In this document: one piece after another, positions 11,120 through 22,666 of the stretch | Position numbering within the stretch: position 1 is the first letter of the stretch | How the letters are laid out: each line of letters begins with the position of its first letter | Source of the DNA: an uncultured Lachnospiraceae bacterium | GTDB taxonomy: Bacteria > Bacillota > Clostridia > Lachnospirales > Lachnospiraceae | DNA length: 64,000 nucleotides | Reading direction: 5' to 3' | Assembly (NCBI GenBank): GCA_902781325.1 | Contig: CACZJD010000005.1 | Span: 24,836-88,835 of the forward strand | Position numbers and translations under genes: made by a program | Notes under the pieces: model-generated | What the model was told of the DNA's origin: nothing | Database searches by the model: none | The model's input: only the letters and a program-made list of their open reading frames with translations

Positions 11120-11722
11120 ATGACATATAACTTTTTTGCCACGCTGTCGAGAATGAAATACATCGAACGCTGGGCGCTGATGAGAAATGCGCGCGAGGAG
11201 ACACTGAGCGAGCACACGCTGGACGTCGCGATGATCGCACATGCGCTGTGCGTGATCGGCAATAAACGGTTCGGGAAATCGCTCAACGCGGACCGCGCGG
11301 CACTGATCGGGCTTTACCACGACGCGTCGGAGATCATCACCGGCGACATGCCTACGCCGGTCAAGTATTACAACGACGACCTGCGGGACGCATACAAAGA
11401 AGTGGAGCGGGCGGCGGAGCAGAGGCTTTTAAAGCAGCTGCCGGAAGACCTGCAGGGTGTCTACGGCGAGATCTTCGAGGGGGATTCTTCCGAAGAAGAC
11501 AGCTATATGCGCCGGCTCGTGAAGGCGGCGGACAAGCTCTCAGCGCTGATCAAGTGCATGGAGGAGACGGGGGCCGGAAACGGCGAGTTCCGGACAGCGC
11601 AGGCATCTACTCTCAGGGCAGTGGAGAAACTGGCCTGGGAAATGCCGGAAGTGAAGGTTTATCTGGAGGAGTTCCTGCCTCCCTATGGCAGCACATTGGA
11701 TGAACTTCTCGGGAGAGGATAG
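11120..11722 (+). CDS. yfbR: 5'-deoxynucleotidase, YfbR-like HD domain protein
   Basis: ATG 11120 gives 200 aa, the length of YfbR (199 aa), with AAGAGGAAA upstream; the frame is open from 11015 but the extra residues match nothing. The HD signature is complete: RWALMRNAREETLSEHTLDV, then YHDASEIITGDMPTPVKY, then VKAADKLSALIKCMEE. The family removes phosphate from dNMPs in nucleotide salvage. The decayed yfcE-like gene follows 36 bp later, probably in the same transcript. Confidence 0.93.
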   Translation: MTYNFFATLSRMKYIERWALMRNAREETLSEHTLDVAMIAHALCVIGNKRFGKSLNADRAALIGLYHDASEIITGDMPTPVKYYNDDLRDAYKEVERAAEQRLLKQLPEDLQGVYGEIFEGDSSEEDSYMRRLVKAADKLSALIKCMEETGAGNGEFRTAQASTLRAVEKLAWEMPEVKVYLEEFLPPYGSTLDELLGRG

Positions 11723-11758
11723 TGCCCGCGCCGGGAAGCGGCGGAATGGAGAGTATTT

Positions 11759-12194
11759 ATGAAAGTATTGGTAGTCAGCGATTCCCACGGAAGACATGAT
11801 CTTCTCCGCAAAGCCATCGGACACGGGGCGCGAATACATCGTGCATGCGGTAGCCGGCAACATGGACTGGGGAACGCCGGAAGACAGCAGTCTTGCATTT
11901 GACATGGGAGGACATAAGGTGTTCCTGACCCATGGACACCATTACGGCGTTTCCTACACGCTGGCCAACCTGCGGGAAGCCGCGGAGAACTGCGGGGCGG
12001 ATGTGGCGATCTACGGTCACACCCATATGCCGGCGCTGGATGAGCAGAATGACATTCTGCTGCTCAATCCGGGCAGTGTGTCCAAACCCAGGCAGTCGGG
12101 ACTGAAGAAGACTTACGCGGTGATCACGATCAATGATAAGACCGGGAAGATGTCGGTGAAATTCAAGAGTCTGCCTATGATTGGCTGGATCTGA
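11759..12194 (+). pseudogene. YfcE/MJ0936-type metallophosphodiesterase, internally deleted and frameshifted
   Basis: ATG 11759 opens MKVLVVSDSHGRHDLLRKAI, the standard beginning with the metal-binding DSHG, but this frame stops at 11900. The rest of the protein continues in another frame from about 11820: YIVHAVAGNMDWG, FLTHGHH, YGHTHMP and NPGSVSKPR. Joining the frames leaves almost nothing between RKAI and the GNxD region, where the family normally has about 30-40 residues including the LIHLGD metal motif. So motif II is missing as well as the frame. Either a real inactivating deletion or a consensus gap could produce this. A new start at 11796 would give a 132-aa fragment without the first two metal motifs. 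Confidence 0.85.
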
Positions 12195-12207
12195 AGACGG
12201 AGCATTA

Positions 12208-12235
12208 TAAAAAACGGCGGTGAGCCGTTTTTTTG
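12208..12235 (+). terminator. Rho-independent terminator after the yfcE remnant
   Basis: AAAACGGC and GCCGTTTT pair around a GGTGA loop, followed by T residues, starting about 15 bp after the stop at 12194. Confidence 0.85.
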
Positions 12236-12292
12236 TGGGATAATCCGGTCGCGCGCAGTGTTTGTCATGGGGATTTGTTGATTCCAGGTGCG

Positions 12293-12633
12293 GTTGGGTA
12301 CAGAGGGGCGAGGTTGCGGATTTGTTCCACCTGGATTTTGTTGATTTTGGGCGCGGTTGGGCACAGAGGGGCATTTTTAGAAATTGTTCTCCAGGGCTTT
12401 TGCTGATTTTGAACGTAGTTGGGCACAGAAGAACATTTACAAGAAATAATTCTCTTTCCGCGAGGAAATTCTTGGAGAAGAAATCAAGAAAAACCTTGCA
12501 GTGCCCAACAGCCTTCAACTCATCGAAAAACCAAGGGGAAGAAATCAAAAAGAACCCTTACAGTGCCCAACAGCCGTCAAACCATCGAAAAACCGAGGGG
12601 AAGAAATTAAGAATGCCCAGAACAGTGCCCAAC
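12293..12633. repeat. Array A of ~62-bp repeat units that switch orientation
   Basis: Three units in plus orientation start with GTTGGGYAC at 12293, 12356 and 12418. Three units in minus orientation end with GTGCCCAAC at 12501-12509, 12563-12571 and 12625-12633. Spacing is 62-63 bp. The whole unit is conserved, including TTCTCC..GG.TTTTG.TGA, not just the edge motif. The 83-bp centre between the opposed units contains CAAGAA...TTCTTG complementary arms. A partial unit precedes the first one. A second, closely similar array lies at 13697-14098 in the same overall orientation. Confidence 0.88.
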
Positions 12634-12674
12634 GGGGGAATAAGGATTCATGACGCTTCGCCCCGAAACGCCGT

Positions 12675-13511
12675 TCAATATAAAGGGACAGTTTCACAGG
12701 AGAAAAATTCTCTGAGTTTATCTTGAGCAATTGTAATATCAAAAGGGCGGCCTTCGCTCTCGTAAGTCAGGATTAAATTGTAATCGGGAATAAGACCATT
12801 GTTGATGTAAATTCGCATTTTTTGAATGAAGTCTGAGCGATATTCCGGCATATGGAGAGCTCCGACATGTTCCCAATAATAGGTTTTTCCGGTGACAGGA
12901 TGACGAATCGTGAAATCAGGATAATAGATATGCCCGCCAATTTCCAACTTGCATTCATAACGATAAGGGATGTGCTGTGCAGAAAGAAGCATTACGATGA
13001 ATGCTTCAGATTTAGAACGGACCATTGTCCCGTCAACGGTCGGAACGTTTTTGTGTTCAGGATGGTAAGGATTAGTTTCGTACTCTTCATGAGCCCATCT
13101 TTTCAATTCTTCAGACAAATCATCTGAGGTCGGCAACTCTTCGTCTTCCAGAAGATTAAAAAGCAGTGGCACATTAAGAAGGTCTTTAAGAGCTGAATTC
13201 TGGCTGTATTTTGCCAAAAAAGAATCCATTGCACTAAGCTGGTTTTTAATATCCTTAAGGCGTTTACTGTGGAACCTTTTTCGAGCAAGCTGCTTCGCGA
13301 AATTTCGATTCTTACGGGAAATATAAATTTTCTTATTGAGGCCATCCTTATCAGTAACGGAGACATAGTACTTGTAGTAAGTCCTCCCTTTGGAAGTGTT
13401 TTTACTGTAGATGAGCGTGCCAACTGGTGCTTCGCGAAGAAGCTTTTCCAGCTTGCGCTTCTCCTGGATCAAGGATTCACGAGTGTCTTCTATGATGTTT
13501 TTCAGTGTCAT
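12675..13511 (-). CDS. Uncharacterised protein with PD-(D/E)XK-like nuclease domain
   Basis: A 278-aa protein starting behind a strong GGAGG/AAGGAG region. Residues 1-100 are basic and coiled-coil-like, with a segment resembling a short beta domain (GRTYYKYYVSVTDKDG). The C-terminal half contains RSKSEAFIVMLL, YRYECKLEIGGHIYYPDFTI and YYWEHVGALHMPEY. This Glu, Asp, Glu-x-His order matches the restriction-endonuclease-like (PD-(D/E)XK) fold with a replaced terminal Lys. The gene lies between two direct copies of a 62-bp-unit repeat array. I know similar proteins in Lachnospiraceae only as hypotheticals. Nuclease activity and any link to the repeats are inference. Confidence 0.7.
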   Translation of the reverse strand: MTLKNIIEDTRESLIQEKRKLEKLLREAPVGTLIYSKNTSKGRTYYKYYVSVTDKDGLNKKIYISRKNRNFAKQLARKRFHSKRLKDIKNQLSAMDSFLAKYSQNSALKDLLNVPLLFNLLEDEELPTSDDLSEELKRWAHEEYETNPYHPEHKNVPTVDGTMVRSKSEAFIVMLLSAQHIPYRYECKLEIGGHIYYPDFTIRHPVTGKTYYWEHVGALHMPEYRSDFIQKMRIYINNGLIPDYNLILTYESEGRPFDITIAQDKLREFFSCETVPLY

Positions 13512-13696
13512 GGGGCTCCTTTCCTCCGAATGGAGATAGAAATGAAATGTGAAAGTGTAAATTGGTTTGTTCCGACTGTCGCCTGATGATTACGGCGAGA
13601 TCCATCGGAAGAACGATTATTCCTAGATTATATGGCGAATGGAGATGGGAGGCAAGAAGGAAGAGTTGGAATTTGTGCGGCTGGTTTTTAGGCGTG
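13512..13696. other. Intergenic segment upstream of the nuclease gene
   Basis: It holds the nuclease ribosome site next to 13512 and a degenerate partial repeat unit (GTTGGAATTTGTGCGG near 13665). I see no convincing gene or promoter. Confidence 0.4.
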
Positions 13697-14098
13697 GTTG
13701 GGCACTAGGTTGATTTGTTGGAAATTGTGCTCCTGGGATTTGGTGATTTTGAGCGTGGTTGGGTACCAGGTTGGTTTTGGGGGAAATGTTCCCCCAGGAT
13801 TTTAGTGATTATGGGCGCGGTTGGGCACAGAGGGGCATTATTAGAAATTGTTCTCCAAGGTTTTTGCTGATTTTGAACGTAGTTGGGCACAGAAGAACAT
13901 TTACAAGAAAGAATTCTCTTTCCGCGAGGAATTTCTTGGAGAAGAAATCAAGAAAAACCATTGTAGCGCCCAACAGCCTTAAAATTAGTGAAAAACCGAG
14001 GGGAAGAAATCAAGAAAAACCCTTGCAGTGCCCAACAGTCTTTAAATCATCGAAAAACCGAGGGGAAGAGATTTAGAATAACCATCACAGTGCCCAAC
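13697..14098. repeat. Array B of ~62-bp repeat units that switch orientation
   Basis: Four plus-oriented units start with GTTGGGYAC at 13697, 13758, 13820 and 13882. Three minus-oriented units end with G(T/C)GCCCAAC at 13966-13974, 14028-14036 and 14090-14098. Spacing is 61-62 bp. The last two plus units, the 84-bp centre and the three minus units run parallel to array A with only scattered differences. Both arrays end with CCAACGGGG. The array sits directly before the 3' end of ygiQ. Confidence 0.88.
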
Positions 14099-14109
14099 GG
14101 GGCACAGAG

Positions 14110-16092
14110 TCAATGCTTCTTCGGCCCGGAGCGTCGCCCGGAACTCCCGGATTTGCTAGAATTGCCGCGCGGCTTACGTGAATCATGCGCAGTCTGAGAA
14201 CCGCGTGATTTCTGTGACTTCCGCGAATCAGAAATTCCCCGCGGCGAAAGCGAATCGGTTGCTCTCCGCGGTTCCCTGGGCGGGATCAGGAATTTCTCTC
14301 CGAATCCAATCAGGTCGCTGCGGCCTTCCCGGAGGAGAGCTTCCTTGACCAGGGCGTAATTCTTGGGATCCCTGTACTGGATCAGCGCGCGCTGCATCGC
14401 TTTTTCATGCGGGTCGCGCGGCACATACACTTTCTGCATCGTGGAAGGGTCGCCGCCGCGCATGGTTGTCGGGTCAAGACCGGTGTAGTACATGCAGGTG
14501 GAGATCGTGCCCGGCGTCGGGTAGAAGTCCTGCACCTGCTCCGGCATGTAGCCGAGGTCGCGGATATATTCAGCGAGGGCGATCGCGTCCTTCATGGTGC
14601 TGCCCGGGTGGGAACTCATCAGGTAGGGCACGATATACTGATCTTTGCCGAGCTTTTCATTCATTTTCTCGAATTCGCGGCAGAAAGCGTTGTATACGTT
14701 CACCGAAGGCTTGCCCATTTTGGAGAGCACATTGTCCGAGATGTGTTCAGGTGCCACTCGGAGCTGCCCACTGACATGATACTCGCAAAGTTCCCGCAGG
14801 AAGGTCCGGTCCTTGTCTGCCAAAAGATAGTCGAATCGGAAGCCTGACCTGACGAACACTTTTTTGACGCCCGGAAGGGCGCGGAGCTTTCTAAGGAGCG
14901 AGAGGTAGTCGCTGTGGTCGACTTTGAGGTTGGGACAGGGCTGAGGATATAGGCAGCGCCGGTTCTTGCAGGCTCCCTTGGTGAGCTGCTTGTCGCAGGC
15001 GGGGCGTCTGAACTCCGCGGTGGGACCTCCGACGTCGTGAATGTATCCTTTGAAGTCGGGGTCTTTCAGGCAGGTCTTAGCCTCCTCGAGGATAGACTTA
15101 TGGCTGCGGGCCTGAACGATTCGGCCCTCGTGGAAGGTGAGAGCGCAGAAATTGCAGTCGCCAAAACAGCCCCTGTTCGAAGTGAGGCTGAATTTGATCT
15201 CGCTGAGCGCAGGGATGCCGCCGTCTTTCTCATAAGAGGGGTGATAGGCGCGCATGAAGGGCAGCGCGTAGACGTCGTCCATCTCCTGGGTGGTCAGGGG
15301 CTTTGCGGGCGGGTTCTGCACGACGAAAAGTTTGCCGTCGTAAGCTTCGTACAGGCGCTTTGCCTGGAAAGGATCTGTGTTCTCGTGCTGGACCGCGAAA
15401 CTGCAGGCGTACTGTCTCTTGTCGCTGCGGACCTGCTCGAAGTCGGGGAGCCTTATGGCGTCGTAGATGCTCTCCTCGTCGCGGGTCTTGTAGACGGTTC
15501 CGTCGATGTAAGTGATGTCGCGAATATCAAGGCCGGAGGCGAGGGCATCGGCGATCTCAGGAATACTGTGTTCGCCCATGCCGTAGGAAATCAGGTCCGC
15601 ACCGGAATCGAGAAGGATCGAGCGGCGGACCTTGTCGGACCAGTAGTCGTAGTGGCTGAGCCGGCGGAGGGAAGCCTCAATTCCGCCGATGATGATGGGC
15701 GTTCGCTTGTAGGTCTGCCGGATCAGGTTGCAGTAGACAATGACTGCGTAGTCGGGGCGCTTGCCGATGACTCCTCCGGGGGAATAGGCGTCTTGATGGC
15801 GTCTCTTTTTTGCCACTGTATAATGGTTGACCATGGAGTCCATGTTGCCGGAGGAGACGAGGAAGCCCAGACGCGGTTCTCCGTAAATCTGTACGCTCTT
15901 CGGATCGCGCCAGTCGGGCTGGCAGACCAGGGCGACGCTGTAGCCGCGGGACTGCAGCAGGCGGCAGATGATCGCGGTGCCGAAGCTCGAGTGGTCCACA
16001 TAAGCGTCGCCGCTGACATAGACAAAGTCGGGCCGGTCAATGCCGTCCGCTATGAGGTCTTGTTTGCTGATGGGTAGAAAGCCGTTGGGCAT
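14110..16092 (-). CDS. ygiQ: YgiQ family radical SAM protein
   Basis: A 660-aa protein, the normal size of YgiQ. It starts behind AAGGAG. The radical SAM cluster motif is GCFGDCNFC (Cys-x3-Cys-x2-Cys), preceded by the N-terminal B12-binding-like part (PDWRDPKSVQIYGEPRLGF) and followed by the family's Cys-rich RRCLYPQPCPNLKVDHSDY. The C-terminal tail is Arg/Ser-rich and low-complexity. The substrate is unknown; members are conserved iron-sulfur SAM enzymes. Repeat array B lies just past its stop. Confidence 0.95.
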   Translation of the reverse strand: MPNGFLPISKQDLIADGIDRPDFVYVSGDAYVDHSSFGTAIICRLLQSRGYSVALVCQPDWRDPKSVQIYGEPRLGFLVSSGNMDSMVNHYTVAKKRRHQDAYSPGGVIGKRPDYAVIVYCNLIRQTYKRTPIIIGGIEASLRRLSHYDYWSDKVRRSILLDSGADLISYGMGEHSIPEIADALASGLDIRDITYIDGTVYKTRDEESIYDAIRLPDFEQVRSDKRQYACSFAVQHENTDPFQAKRLYEAYDGKLFVVQNPPAKPLTTQEMDDVYALPFMRAYHPSYEKDGGIPALSEIKFSLTSNRGCFGDCNFCALTFHEGRIVQARSHKSILEEAKTCLKDPDFKGYIHDVGGPTAEFRRPACDKQLTKGACKNRRCLYPQPCPNLKVDHSDYLSLLRKLRALPGVKKVFVRSGFRFDYLLADKDRTFLRELCEYHVSGQLRVAPEHISDNVLSKMGKPSVNVYNAFCREFEKMNEKLGKDQYIVPYLMSSHPGSTMKDAIALAEYIRDLGYMPEQVQDFYPTPGTISTCMYYTGLDPTTMRGGDPSTMQKVYVPRDPHEKAMQRALIQYRDPKNYALVKEALLREGRSDLIGFGEKFLIPPREPRRATDSLSPRGISDSRKSQKSRGSQTAHDSRKPRGNSSKSGSSGRRSGPKKH

Positions 16093-16145: not shown

Positions 16146-16154
16146 TGTTATAAT
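16146..16154 (+). promoter_or_regulatory. Extended -10 promoter
   Basis: TGTTATAAT is a perfect TGn-TATAAT element, about 85 bp before the lipoprotein gene at 16238. No clear -35 is present. Confidence 0.6.
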
Positions 16155-16237
16155 GGATGTGTATCAGGTTGGGAAATCTCCAAACCTGCAGAAGACGGCA
16201 GCCTTTAACAGAATATGCTACAGGAGGCGGGAAATAG

Positions 16238-17953
16238 ATGAGAAAAACAATTGCAGCAGCAGTGATCACAGCAATGATCGCAGGAGCTCTCTGCGGATGC
16301 GGAGCAGGTGCGCCAAAGGAGCCGGCTTCACAGGACGCAGCACAAAACGAAGCCGCGCAGGAGCAGGATGCAGCTTCGCAGGACCAGCAAACGGAGGCCG
16401 AAGCGGTTCAGGAAGAGACCGCTCAGACGCAGGAAACAGCACAGTCCGCGGAAGCAGAGTCCGACGTTGTGCGCCCCGTATATAAACTGCAGAGCCACTC
16501 CCGTATGGAAGAGAAGGACCTCACGCTGATCGCAAGCGGCTCCTACGACACAGTCAGGCTTACAGAAGAAACGGCTATGAACTATATCTATCTGAATAAA
16601 GCCATTGAAACAGAGAATGACCTGATCGCAGAGAAGTATGAGAAATCATTCGCAGAGGTCAAGGAAGCGGCTGAGAACGCTATAGCTGAGCAGAGAGATG
16701 ATACGGAAGAATTTCCTGTCGGAAATATGGAAGGAAAGATCGTGCCGGTCCGGTGCGATGAGTCAGTTCTGAGTTTTTATGAAGTGTCCTCTGTGTATTA
16801 TCCCGGCGCGGCGCACGGCTCTGTGGGCTACAGCGGATACAATTATAAGCCCGAAAACGGCGCACAGATCACACTTGCGGATGTCTTTACGGACCTCGCA
16901 GCACTGAAGCCAGTCGTGGCAAAATATCTTCGCGCCCAGGCTGACGGATCACCGATAGAGGATGCGGAGGATGCGCTGCAGTTCTATTTTGACGAGGGCA
17001 ATATGGACGCCCTGACATGGGTGATCGATCAGGACGGCGTGACATTCCTTTTCGCGCCTTCCGATATCGCGCCTTATGCGATGGGAACACTGGAAGCCAG
17101 GATATATTTTGACAGGGAGCCCTCTCTCTTCACCGGTAATTACGGACCTTCCAAGGAAGGTTATGTGAAACCTTTGAGCCCGTATACTGAGATGACAGTG
17201 GATTTGGACGGAGACGGCACGGACGAGAAACTGTCGGTGACCGGCACATATGAAGAGGGAAACGAGATCTACGCGTATTCCGGCATTCAGGTTTGTGTGG
17301 GAGATCAGGTCTGCACGACGGAGCTGTACTGCTTCAGCATGCAGCCGAGCTTTGTGCACATAGAAGACGGAAGGAATTATGTATACGTGGTGACCGGAAC
17401 AGATAACGATTATCCGGAACTGAGTGTATTTGCGATCAAAGACAATGTTCCGTCGTTCGTTGGCAAAATGGACGGGACCGGTTATGCGTCTGCTTTCTAT
17501 TCGGCCTACGTGGACGGTAAGTACAGCCTGGAACAGAGCGTTAACGAGCGCTATCCGATGATCGACCCGTCGAAATTCGCACTCGGCACAAGAATGCAGC
17601 TTATGAGCACATACAGCGGCCGCCGCTTCTACAAAGTGGGAGAGGACGGAATGCCCGCTCCGCTGACAGATTTATACGAGATTGACGCGGATATCACGCT
17701 CACCACCCTTGTGCCTGTGAAGGCGGAAGTGGTGGACATCCTGACGGAAGAGCCGACAGGCGAGGAGAAGGAGATCCCGGTCGGAACGAAACTGAATTTC
17801 TGGAGGACAAACGGCACTGACACCGTTGACTTCCGGACGGATGACATGAAAACCGGGGAAGCTTTCCGCGTCAAAGTAGAGACGGGGGACGGCCAGACGG
17901 TGAACGGTATTAAGCTGCAGGAAGCTTTTGACGGGACAGTGTTTGGAGGATGA
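16238..17953 (+). CDS. Lipoprotein with DUF3298-like (RsiV-type) domain
   Basis: A 571-aa protein behind GGAGG. Signal peptide with lipobox LCGC, lipidated Cys at residue 21; then an Ala/Gln/Glu-rich linker to about residue 82. Residues about 90-290 resemble the DUF4163/DUF3298 pair found in RsiV: YYPGAAHGSVGYSGYNY followed by ITLADVF. The remainder (about 310-571) has an EF-hand-like DLDGDGTDE and beta-rich segments. It is probably an envelope-exposed protein of unknown role. There is no sigma gene beside it, so an anti-sigma function is not supported. Confidence 0.82.
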   Translation: MRKTIAAAVITAMIAGALCGCGAGAPKEPASQDAAQNEAAQEQDAASQDQQTEAEAVQEETAQTQETAQSAEAESDVVRPVYKLQSHSRMEEKDLTLIASGSYDTVRLTEETAMNYIYLNKAIETENDLIAEKYEKSFAEVKEAAENAIAEQRDDTEEFPVGNMEGKIVPVRCDESVLSFYEVSSVYYPGAAHGSVGYSGYNYKPENGAQITLADVFTDLAALKPVVAKYLRAQADGSPIEDAEDALQFYFDEGNMDALTWVIDQDGVTFLFAPSDIAPYAMGTLEARIYFDREPSLFTGNYGPSKEGYVKPLSPYTEMTVDLDGDGTDEKLSVTGTYEEGNEIYAYSGIQVCVGDQVCTTELYCFSMQPSFVHIEDGRNYVYVVTGTDNDYPELSVFAIKDNVPSFVGKMDGTGYASAFYSAYVDGKYSLEQSVNERYPMIDPSKFALGTRMQLMSTYSGRRFYKVGEDGMPAPLTDLYEIDADITLTTLVPVKAEVVDILTEEPTGEEKEIPVGTKLNFWRTNGTDTVDFRTDDMKTGEAFRVKVETGDGQTVNGIKLQEAFDGTVFGG

Positions 17954-17998
17954 GACAGGGGACAGTCCCTCTGACTTTGTTGAGACAACAAAACAGTA

Positions 17999-18032
17999 GC
18001 AGCCGGAGGATATGTACTCCGGTTGCTTTTTG
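17999..18032 (+). terminator. Rho-independent terminator of the DUF3298 lipoprotein gene
   Basis: GCAGCCGGAG and CTCCGGTTGC pair around an 8-nt loop and are followed by TTTTT. A related hairpin recurs at 19060-19094. Confidence 0.85.
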
Positions 18033-18059
18033 TTTCAGGGACAACTGATTCCCATGAAT

Positions 18060-18112
18060 CCGTAATTGACGATATAGTACTCGCATGCTACAATATCCGT
18101 AATTAACGATAT
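18060..18112 (+). promoter_or_regulatory. Promoter with duplicated operator for the XRE-DUF4160 operon
   Basis: TTGACG at 18066-18071 and TACAAT at 18089-18094 are 17 bp apart, near the sigma-A consensus. The 16-mer CCGTAATTGACGATAT (18060-18075) overlaps the -35, and CCGTAATTAACGATAT (18097-18112) sits over the start site. Two near-identical sites at these positions suggest repression, most simply by the XRE protein encoded next. Confidence 0.7.
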
Positions 18113-18132
18113 TCGGAAGAGAGGTACATGTT

Positions 18133-18762
18133 ATGACTGTCGGACAGCGGATTTTTTACCTTTTGGAAGAAAAGAAAATGACGCAAGTGGAGTTCTCCAA
18201 ACGAACCGGAATTGCAACGACTACGATCAGCGATTGGAGAAAGAAGAACACGAATCCGGGATCCGAGAAGATCATGCAGATCTGTGCAGCTCTCGAAGTG
18301 ACCCCGGAGTATCTGCTTTCCGGTGTTTGCGAGGACAGCGACAGAGGGAAAGCTGTAGACTATATGGTAATTCCTCAGGGAACAGAAGAGCGTGAACTGC
18401 TGGAACTGTTTAACGAGATGCAGTGGCTGGAGCGGGCCCGCTTGTTGGAATATGCGAAGAAACTGTCAGAAAAGAAGAGCAGTGCTTATAAAAGTAAGGA
18501 AAAAAAGGCAATGAAAAAGATTGCGGAATTCTGTGACATTGAGATTTATATGGATGAAGAATTCTCAGGCAGACCTGCTGTTGATGTAAACTATCTCGAC
18601 GACGATGTACAGGGCAGTATTGATCTCGAACAGGGCGTAATAAAAGGCAATTTCTCCAAATATGTGCTCCCCGTGATCGAAGCGTGGTTAAAAGAACACA
18701 GGGAAATGCTGCTGGGAATGTGGAAGGAGAAGAAGATTGACCTTATTCCGGCGTGGGAGTGA
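18133..18762 (+). CDS. XRE family regulator fused to a DUF4160-like domain
   Basis: A 209-aa protein behind GAGAGG. Residues about 5-62 form an XRE helix-turn-helix (KKMTQVEFSKRTGIATTTIS). After a linker, residues about 130-205 match the DUF4160 pattern: IEIYMDEE, a DIDLEDG-like SIDLEQGVIKG, and WLKEHREMLLGMW. DUF4160 proteins are often paired with DUF2442 in small two-gene loci suspected to be toxin-antitoxin-like. Here it is fused to a DNA-binding domain and followed by a small unknown gene. Autoregulation is suggested by the two operator-like repeats in its promoter. Confidence 0.82.
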   Translation: MTVGQRIFYLLEEKKMTQVEFSKRTGIATTTISDWRKKNTNPGSEKIMQICAALEVTPEYLLSGVCEDSDRGKAVDYMVIPQGTEERELLELFNEMQWLERARLLEYAKKLSEKKSSAYKSKEKKAMKKIAEFCDIEIYMDEEFSGRPAVDVNYLDDDVQGSIDLEQGVIKGNFSKYVLPVIEAWLKEHREMLLGMWKEKKIDLIPAWE

Positions 18763-18767
18763 TCGCT

Positions 18768-19001
18768 ATGGCATGCAAGGCTGTAAAAAAGCTGCTTGGG
18801 TATGAATTATGTCTGATGGAACCTGAAGGAACACTATACTATTCGGATTCGATTGCGGTGATCAGGAAGGCAGAGTATACGGAAATCTTCAATATTGAGA
18901 CAATGCGGCATGAGATCGGAGATATAATCAAGCGGGAAGTAACTCGAAAAACAATATATCAGTATATCAAAGACCACAGAAAGGATTTTGGAGTCTGTTG
19001 A
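18768..19001 (+). CDS. Small protein of unknown function, partner of XRE-DUF4160
   Basis: A 77-aa protein; ATG 18768 follows GGGAG by about 8 bp and lies 5 bp after the previous stop, so it is in the same operon. GTG 18753 is in frame but overlaps the upstream gene. The sequence mixes short strands and a basic C-terminal helix (DIIKREVTRKTIYQYIKDH). It does not clearly match DUF2442, the usual DUF4160 partner, though its size and position fit that slot. No function is assigned. Confidence 0.6.
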   Translation: MACKAVKKLLGYELCLMEPEGTLYYSDSIAVIRKAEYTEIFNIETMRHEIGDIIKREVTRKTIYQYIKDHRKDFGVC

Positions 19002-19059
19002 CATATCTCTGAATTCTCTTATCAGTTTTCTTGCATATAGTAGATAAGAACCGATTTGA

Positions 19060-19094
19060 AGCAGCTGGGGGACGGATCCTCCGGCTGCTTTTTG
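19060..19094 (+). terminator. Rho-independent terminator after the XRE operon
   Basis: GCAGC...GGGA and TCCTCCGGCTGC pair imperfectly, followed by TTTTT. The apex differs but the outer stem resembles the 17999 terminator. Confidence 0.7.
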
Positions 19095-19332
19095 TGTCAG
19101 GGAGACAAGGGCCCTTGACTCACGGCAGGATCACTTCGACATTATATCTCTCGCACGTCTCCCGCATGCTTCCATCCCCGGAGTCGCCATCGGCGTTAGA
19201 AACGGAGCCAAGGGTTTCCTGGTCCTGACGGTAGAGGCGACGATGAAGACAGTTGAGGAGTCAGATGTCGAACCGACCTGCATTTACGAGTCGCTGGATG
19301 AGATGAGAAAATATATATGACAGGAATAGTAG
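19095..19332. other. Probable gene-remnant segment
   Basis: No intact gene is seen. On the minus strand one open stretch ends with a plausible protein C-terminus (GSMRETCERYNVEVILP, stop near 19123). On the plus strand another ends at 19320 (ESDVEPTCIYESLDEMRKYI). Neither has a start. They look like decayed ends of small genes, but chance cannot be excluded. Confidence 0.3.
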
Positions 19333-21376: not shown

Positions 21377-21407
21377 AAAACGCGGCCTCTGCGGGCCGCG
21401 TTTTTTG
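21377..21407 (+). terminator. Rho-independent terminator of the GH32 gene
   Basis: AACGCGGCC and GGCCGCGTT pair around a short loop, followed by TTTTTT. It lies between convergent genes. Confidence 0.93.
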
Positions 21408-21417
21408 TGTCCGGTGG

Positions 21418-22477: not shown

Positions 22478-22666
22478 AGTTTTCTCCTTACCAAAGCATC
22501 ATTCTGTGCCGAAAAACTATCGCTGAATGTTTCAACCACATGTACGCGATAGCTTCTGGCCGTTTACTGTCCACCGATGATCAGTTTCTGGCAGATTATC
22601 ACTTTCATCATACAGCCTCTGCGGGAGACAGACAACCGTTGCCAAATGTACTGTTCCTTTGGCTTG

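Follow-up and report, generated by a model that had tools for sequence, protein, structure and literature searches.

A nuclease-like protein family and its type-matched, helically phased repeat arrays point to an undescribed kind of mobile DNA in gut Lachnospiraceae

In the window, that is, the whole 64,000-nucleotide stretch of DNA analysed here, a single 278-aa ORF (positions 12675-13511, minus strand) lies between two repeat arrays, one downstream of the gene (approximately 12270-12637) and one upstream (approximately 13686-14102). Both arrays are built around the core GTTGGG(C/T)AC. The downstream array consists of three forward units (cores at 12293, 12356, 12418) followed by three reverse units (12501, 12563, 12625). 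The upstream array consists of four forward units (13697, 13758, 13820, 13882) and then two to three reverse units (cores at 14028, 14090), with a unit length of about 62 bp. The core spacing is 61-63 bp in both arrays, forward cores come first, and both arrays end with CCAACGGGG. Thus the initial annotation, which described orientation-switching repeats of about 62 bp with a common end sequence on both sides of a single gene, is confirmed in these respects. The arrays were also said to run parallel over about 270 bp. They are indeed direct copies, but the parallel run is longer, as 12270-12637 can be aligned with 13735-14102 in direct orientation with 86% identity over 369 columns. A spaced double-core pattern has nine matches in the genome to which the window belongs (G000; 3.0 Mb, 82% complete), eight of them within the window arrays, and the reversed control pattern has none. 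The ninth match is on contig C67, near another paralogue. The paralogue at G000:C67:281-352 (L066; 29% identity) has a 63-bp array, and some of its units contain the GTTGGGCAC core, which may reflect shared descent or chance.

The neighbours of the gene are an ORF with the Pfam domain Metallophos_2 and a radical SAM ORF with the domains Radical_SAM_N and DUF3362, which we take to be yfcE and ygiQ, respectively. The reading frame of the yfcE-like gene is interrupted, because approximately 58-68 bp present in genomes G003, G060 and G013 are missing at about 11819-11830; the gap is either real or an assembly error. Beyond the radical SAM gene, at about 16150-19330, the blocks are arranged in another order in G060, and G033 and G013 lack about 1.3 kb.

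No Pfam or NCBIfam family was found in the 278-aa protein, and none is common to more than one member among 68 homologues scanned singly. The AlphaFold2 model (mean pLDDT 92.7, pTM 0.62) has an N-terminal part and a C-terminal PD-(D/E)XK-like domain. The latter (residues 153-268; positions 12708-13055, minus strand) matches the PADLOC profile PDC-S68 with E=6e-27. Among PDB structures, the sole Foldseek match at E<=0.001 is Bax1 (E=8.9e-4, prob 1.00); the R2 endonuclease is matched with prob 0.97 at E=0.044. TM-scores are low because only one domain aligns. A profile search of PDB sequences gave no convincing match, and a viral structure library gave weak matches, all of them to nucleases. The PD-(D/E)XK-like domain proposed at the outset is thus supported weakly by the fold (Foldseek) and by the sequence through the PADLOC profile. 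An HUH Y1 transposase domain is absent from the window protein according to Pfam and is not shared among the 68 members; the fold is PD-(D/E)XK-like.

Positions E169, E186, D199, E214 and H215 are invariant in all 68 aligned members, and residue 231 is lysine in 64 and arginine in four. The last-acid motif reads E-H-x-G, where (D/E)XK would have a lysine; lysine 231 may stand in for it. E169, E186, D199 and E214 are putative catalytic acids, being conserved acids on a predicted PD-(D/E)XK core fold. The N-terminal part (residues 1-104; positions 13200-13511, minus strand) is predicted to form a helix, a three-stranded sheet and a long helix (H-EEE-H; pLDDT 96.9 when modelled alone) and has no PDB structure match at E<=0.001. 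It is a candidate array-binding domain.

Four more family matches were found in the same genome in addition to the window gene. At least one match was observed in 66 of 195 genomes, some of the matches being the nuclease domain of proteins of about 1200 residues. A scan of genome contigs yielded at least 573 relatives, and the titles of the best 80 of them are mostly Lachnospiraceae, plus two Fibrobacter succinogenes bins. Seven plasmid records match in the nuclease domain alone, including large AAA-ATPase or RecQ-annotated proteins, and three viral contigs match this domain. There are three matching phage records, one of which, a metagenomic record of 4.2 kb, covers 96% of the query with 24% identity. 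Open frames of about 1210-1240 residues that contain the nuclease domain, like PDC-S68, were observed at G096:C1:955731, G043:C52:57452 and G044:C18:51417.

Repeats pile up within about 600 bp of the family members. Coverage by short-range repeats was measured in 300-bp bins at 81 loci (not de-duplicated). In the two bins nearest the gene it is 23% and 21% on the upstream side and 16% and 10% on the downstream side, and more than 1 kb away it is 0.2-3%. A 10-mer with at least six copies is present near the gene at 41 of the 81 loci and two kb away at two of them; for at least five copies the numbers are 59 and 14. Among 136 non-redundant homologues, 105 have full 700-bp flanks and 31 have incomplete ones, and in 67 of the 105 the best 10-mer count is above all ten shuffles. 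The strict array test required at least five copies and a count above all shuffles. The initial annotation had considered the case of homologues regularly occurring without repeats. This does not hold for most of the family, as 82 of the 136 homologues pass the strict test, but 54 fail it, including L050. The test under-counts, since at L050 forward and reverse cores are visible by eye.

At 72 of the 82 array-bearing loci the cores are present in both orientations. The array is single-sided at 58 loci (upstream only at 41, downstream only at 17), and the remaining 24 have at least two cores on both sides. No unique, fixed-length hypervariable spacers of the CRISPR kind were seen by eye, and whole units resemble each other. 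Extreme arrays adjoin L191 and L065: one comprises 37 cores spaced 63 bp apart, and the other is built of a 14-bp unit repeated head to tail.

The spacings between cores of the same orientation cluster near 42, 53, 63, 74, 84 and 94 bp, that is, at whole turns of B-DNA. The median spacings at 77 loci are about 42 bp (3 loci), 51-54 bp (23), 61-64 bp (25), 71-75 bp (12), 83-85 bp (5), 93-94 bp (4) and 105 bp (1), with outliers at 35, 66.5, 97.5 and 132.5 bp. For these loci the phasing is R=0.80 at a period of 10.3, which none of 20000 jittered nulls reached; a motif-independent measure near the gene gave R=0.70 at 66 loci (0 of 5000 nulls). For repeats more than 1.5 kb from the gene (n=53), R=0.14 and 4972 of 5000 nulls were as high; these repeats favour multiples of three (33 of 53), like coding repeats. 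Whole-turn spacings are mixed inside single arrays, e.g. 52/63/74. We read the whole-turn spacing as marking sites for a protein on duplex DNA. However, the upstream array of the window, folded as a single strand with RNA parameters, scores better than 100 of 100 dinucleotide shuffles (z=-6.2), which counts against this as the sole reading; such a score is also what the forward-reverse symmetry would predict.

The core sequence varies between family members and is specific to the nuclease. Motif similarity averages 2.3 for proteins less than 40% identical and 6.0 for those more than 60% identical (12 pairs). An exception is the pair L086 and L177, whose proteins are 70% identical and whose motifs have little similarity. 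Patterns of two array types, the window type and the type found at a paralogue on contig C78, with 94-bp spacing, were followed in 14 genomes. The analyst chose these genomes, which are related and have completeness values of 63-98%; the five-of-five and zero-of-nine counts below are therefore not independent trials.

The window-type pattern is present in eight of the 14 genomes, with 6, 24, 6 and 13 matches in G000, G024, G060 and G033, and 12, 1, 10 and 1 in G013, G036, G025 and G003; its control gave one match across all 14. All seven genomes with a nuclease at least 61% identical to the window protein have it. The match in G003 adjoins that genome's own 53% homologue on C68, and the other six genomes (G007, G045, G053, G054, G022, G056) have none. 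Five of the six matches in G000 are at the window gene, and the sixth is at the paralogue on C67. At 20 fetched window-type loci no nuclease was found by tblastn with ten family proteins. Clusters of at least three cores, all forward then reverse, are present at 15 of the 20, with centre gaps of 82-84 bp (12 clusters) or 143-145 bp (3). These 15 solo clusters represent 13 distinct sites, L328/L329 and L330/L331 being orthologous pairs.

The C78-type pattern was found in all five genomes with that nuclease (7, 8, 7, 5 and 8 matches, gene-side ones included) and in none of the nine without it; the control gave no matches. The C78-type arrays have a spacing of 94 bp on both arms, and centre gaps of 98, 108, 118-119, 129 or 139 bp. 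Among 30 loci kept from this search, 22 have no nuclease within about 1.5 kb. Thus, for the window and C78 types, the other adverse outcome considered initially, that repeats occur independently of the gene in different genomes, does not apply, as the array type tracks the nuclease type in the 14 chosen genomes. According to crude ORF calls for 35 array rows (some arrays counted twice), the flanking genes are convergent in 12, same-direction in 15, divergent in five, and of unknown arrangement in three. As 16 of the 35 rows overlap an ORF of at least 90 aa by more than 80 bp, the intergenic position is secure just where the genes were checked.

Three array sites were resolved by comparison of genomes. 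At the first, a window-type array of about 390 bp is present in G033 and G013, between convergent ORFs with GH32 and lactonase Pfam domains, and absent from the window at 21403-21408. The flanks are 82-87% identical, and ACAAAA occurs on both sides of the insert versus once in the window. At the second, a window-type array is present in G013:C65 and G033:C100, G060:C83 and G003:C28 have 44-46 bp instead, and in G000:C86 a C78-type array replaces the window-type one. At the third, a C78-type array is present in G060:C11, G013 and G033 and absent from G003:C33 and G000:C71. As for target-site duplications, there is a 6-bp candidate at the first site, only TTT at the third, and none at the second. 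Another candidate empty site, at 22490 in the window, was rejected: one C78-type unit (TTCGGCACAGAA; approximately 22490-22520, minus strand) remains there, and the full array is found at the same place in G013. As this position proved to be a deletion remnant, the presence and absence of arrays could partly reflect deletion. The insertions at the first and third sites are in the A/T tracts of terminator-like hairpins. Targeting of transcription terminators was considered and dropped; no such preference is claimed, because among 91 array sides scanned, inward terminators numbered only 11 and outward ones 5. For the array in G024:C46, synteny with the relatives breaks down at one flank, next to an ORF that by eye looks like an integrase, and only the G022 spacing is shorter.

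The site between the radical SAM and Metallophos genes is occupied by the nuclease in G000, G060, G033 and G013. The initial annotation had proposed a test for repeat-free empty sites at yfcE/ygiQ. At this site G003, G053, G054 and G024 retain both neighbours without the nuclease. A second nuclease site adjoins a GntR/aminotransferase gene. The nuclease present there varies with the species, and four genomes (G045, G053, G056 and G022) have an empty site. The gene of a homing endonuclease interrupts its target site; here, complete arrays adjoin the nuclease gene, and at empty nuclease sites no array was seen except a possible remnant in G022. In the tree, the G024 nuclease at the GntR site joins the clade of the yfcE site (support 100/99), apart from the other GntR-site copies (100/100). 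Thus the location and the descent of the nucleases disagree.

The data describe a nuclease-like family with nuclease-specific phased arrays and, for two array types, gene-free array copies whose type goes with that of the nuclease from genome to genome and whose presence differs between species. We infer that the protein binds its own array, cuts DNA, acts in trans, and causes the copying or spread of the arrays. With moderate confidence we suggest that this is a two-part mobile system, a trans-acting nuclease and dispersed helically phased arrays, with a logic similar to that of RAYT/REPIN and with unrelated parts. A nuclease gene accompanied by one or two arrays would form the autonomous unit, and the gene-free arrays dispersed over the genome would be non-autonomous copies. 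Each nuclease would have its own core of about 10 bp, recognised by its N-terminal domain. Since the cores are whole turns apart, forward then backward or in alternating pairs, several nuclease molecules may occupy one face of the DNA. The assembled nuclease would then cut the DNA, whether at the array, next to it or at a target. Array copies, sometimes with the gene, would reach new sites with the aid of host repair.

A bolder claim, which we make tentatively and would put a little short of even, is that this is a new class of bacterial mobile DNA. In it, a PD-(D/E)XK-like nuclease without transposase or integrase chemistry would assemble on sites spaced by whole turns and drive the copying of these arrays, occasionally including its own gene. 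The specificity would be one-to-one and fast-changing, allowing several independent nuclease/array pairs to coexist in a genome and even to occupy an identical site in sister species. PD-(D/E)XK enzymes cut, and to our knowledge none joins ends. Further points against mobility are that there is no constant target-site duplication, that 54 of the 136 homologues fail the strict array test, and that in the window's own genome window-type arrays were found at the gene alone, plus one pattern match at the C67 paralogue. Of the proposals in the initial annotation, the mobile or repeat-spreading module with RAYT/REP-like logic is upheld in part. Gene-free arrays, type matching in the 14 chosen genomes, and filled and empty sites agree with it, whereas the protein is only presumed to bind, cut and move the repeats. 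Nothing was seen in support of a defence island, save that PADLOC labels the family with the related nuclease domain as candidate-defence.

As described in the portions of the literature cited here, a RAYT gene adjoins its own repeats, and REPs occur in forward-reverse pairs at many places, in several types per genome, with co-divergence of gene and repeat (PMC3116915, PMC8266576). RAYTs are described there as HUH tyrosine enzymes acting on folded single strands (PMC8266576), and REPs as high-copy palindromes of 20-40 bp (PMC3733652). To the extent of these accounts, the system reported here is similar to REP/REPIN with RAYT (TnpA-REP) in having a protein gene beside repeats, dispersed type-matched repeats, forward-reverse pairs, several types per genome, and co-divergence. 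However, the window protein looks like PD-(D/E)XK, not HUH. Unlike REPs, the units are 42-105 bp long and phased, the arrays are 300-450 bp, and there is a handful to tens of matches per genome (5-8 C78-type and 1-24 window-type matches per positive genome), not high-copy palindromes. As both the enzyme fold and the repeat design differ, this is not a member of RAYT/REPIN. BrickBuilt of Porphyromonas gingivalis is a MITE with an internal minisatellite, present in 19 copies in one strain, with 23-nt head-to-tail repeats and small inverted-repeat ends (PMC4596501). As far as its abstract goes, it resembles the present arrays as a dispersed non-autonomous element with a tandem array inside. However, the arrays here are phased, forward-reverse, and have a partner nuclease, and the BrickBuilt abstract names no partner protein.

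A gene between two multi-site arrays resembles composite transposons and those with multi-site ends, such as Tn7 and Mu. However, the arrays here are direct copies, each symmetric in itself, one array is present at 58 of 82 loci, and there is no transposase. ToxIN, a type III toxin-antitoxin system, also has a repeat array upstream of a nuclease gene; here, in contrast, arrays with B-DNA phasing and in both orientations occur upstream or downstream of the gene as well as at distant places, and the protein fold is different. PDC-S68 has a related nuclease domain over residues 153-268, but its profiles cover about 1200 residues versus 278 aa here, the N-terminus is different, and only the C-terminal domain of PDC-S68 is matched. 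The open-access literature searched contained neither the name PDC-S68 nor a description of a nuclease/phased-array system.

Some of the same observations could have other explanations. Helical phasing is what looping or wrapping proteins require, and the arrays upstream only (41 of 82 loci) and downstream only (17 of 82) would suit a regulatory or nucleoid system. In such a system the protein would bind the phased arrays cooperatively, repress its own gene and loop or fold the DNA; the distant arrays would be regulatory or architectural sites spread passively by recombination, and the nuclease domain would serve another purpose. We consider this unlikely, as arrays are gained or lost at otherwise syntenic sites, all 68 aligned members agree at the proposed nuclease residues, and the motifs diverge fast even among homologues more than 50% identical. 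It is less likely still that the protein is a selfish or defence toxin and the arrays are DNA decoys that titrate away a nuclease which otherwise would attack the DNA of invaders or of the host. The nuclease domain does match the C-terminus of a PADLOC candidate-defence family and large AAA-ATPase or RecQ-annotated plasmid proteins. However, the surroundings of the loci inspected showed no conserved partner gene, and decoys need neither whole-turn spacing nor copies distant from the gene.

The strong fold of the upstream array, which beats all 100 shuffles, would be expected if the array acted as a folded transcript or a folded single strand, as in type III toxin-antitoxin or REPIN-like systems. 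This seems very improbable, since the spacing fits whole turns of B-DNA, arrays are found on either side of the gene and far away, and there is no Rfam match in 11700-14700. Arrays downstream only (17 of 82 loci) and others far from the gene also disagree with the type III layout. Finally, ordinary tandem repeats could be chance neighbours of the nuclease gene, and 14 of 81 distant controls do reach five copies of a 10-mer. The contrast between near and far regions, the phasing and the type matching contradict this, and it can practically be dismissed.

If the two-part mobile system is real, it adds a repeat-spreading system based on a nuclease fold unrelated to the known repeat-spreading transposases, in a host family, Lachnospiraceae, that is abundant in guts and rumens. 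The 136 non-redundant homologues, 82 of them with a clear array, form a large natural set of protein/DNA-site pairs in which recognition changes quickly. Thanks to the whole-turn spacing, direct tests of how the protein and the DNA are arranged in their assembly are feasible, and the system is a concrete test of whether cutting and host repair suffice for DNA mobility.

Several other loci differ in arrangement between relatives. L134 and L136 have flanks that are 93-95% identical, whereas their nucleases share 72% identity and are in inverted orientation with respect to those flanks. The filled site of L134 also contains a gene resembling phosphoribosyl-pyrophosphate synthetases, with a start that by eye looks like a helix-turn-helix; this gene lies between the nuclease and the right flank and is absent from L136. 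L094 and L095 were considered as two copies of a moved element and rejected, since their identity extends over at least 10.6 kb, which looks like a large duplication or an assembly duplication. At L057 (G007:C157) and L050 (G036:C11), segments adjacent to the nuclease are inverted compared to the relatives, and therefore the arrays may be inversion endpoints.
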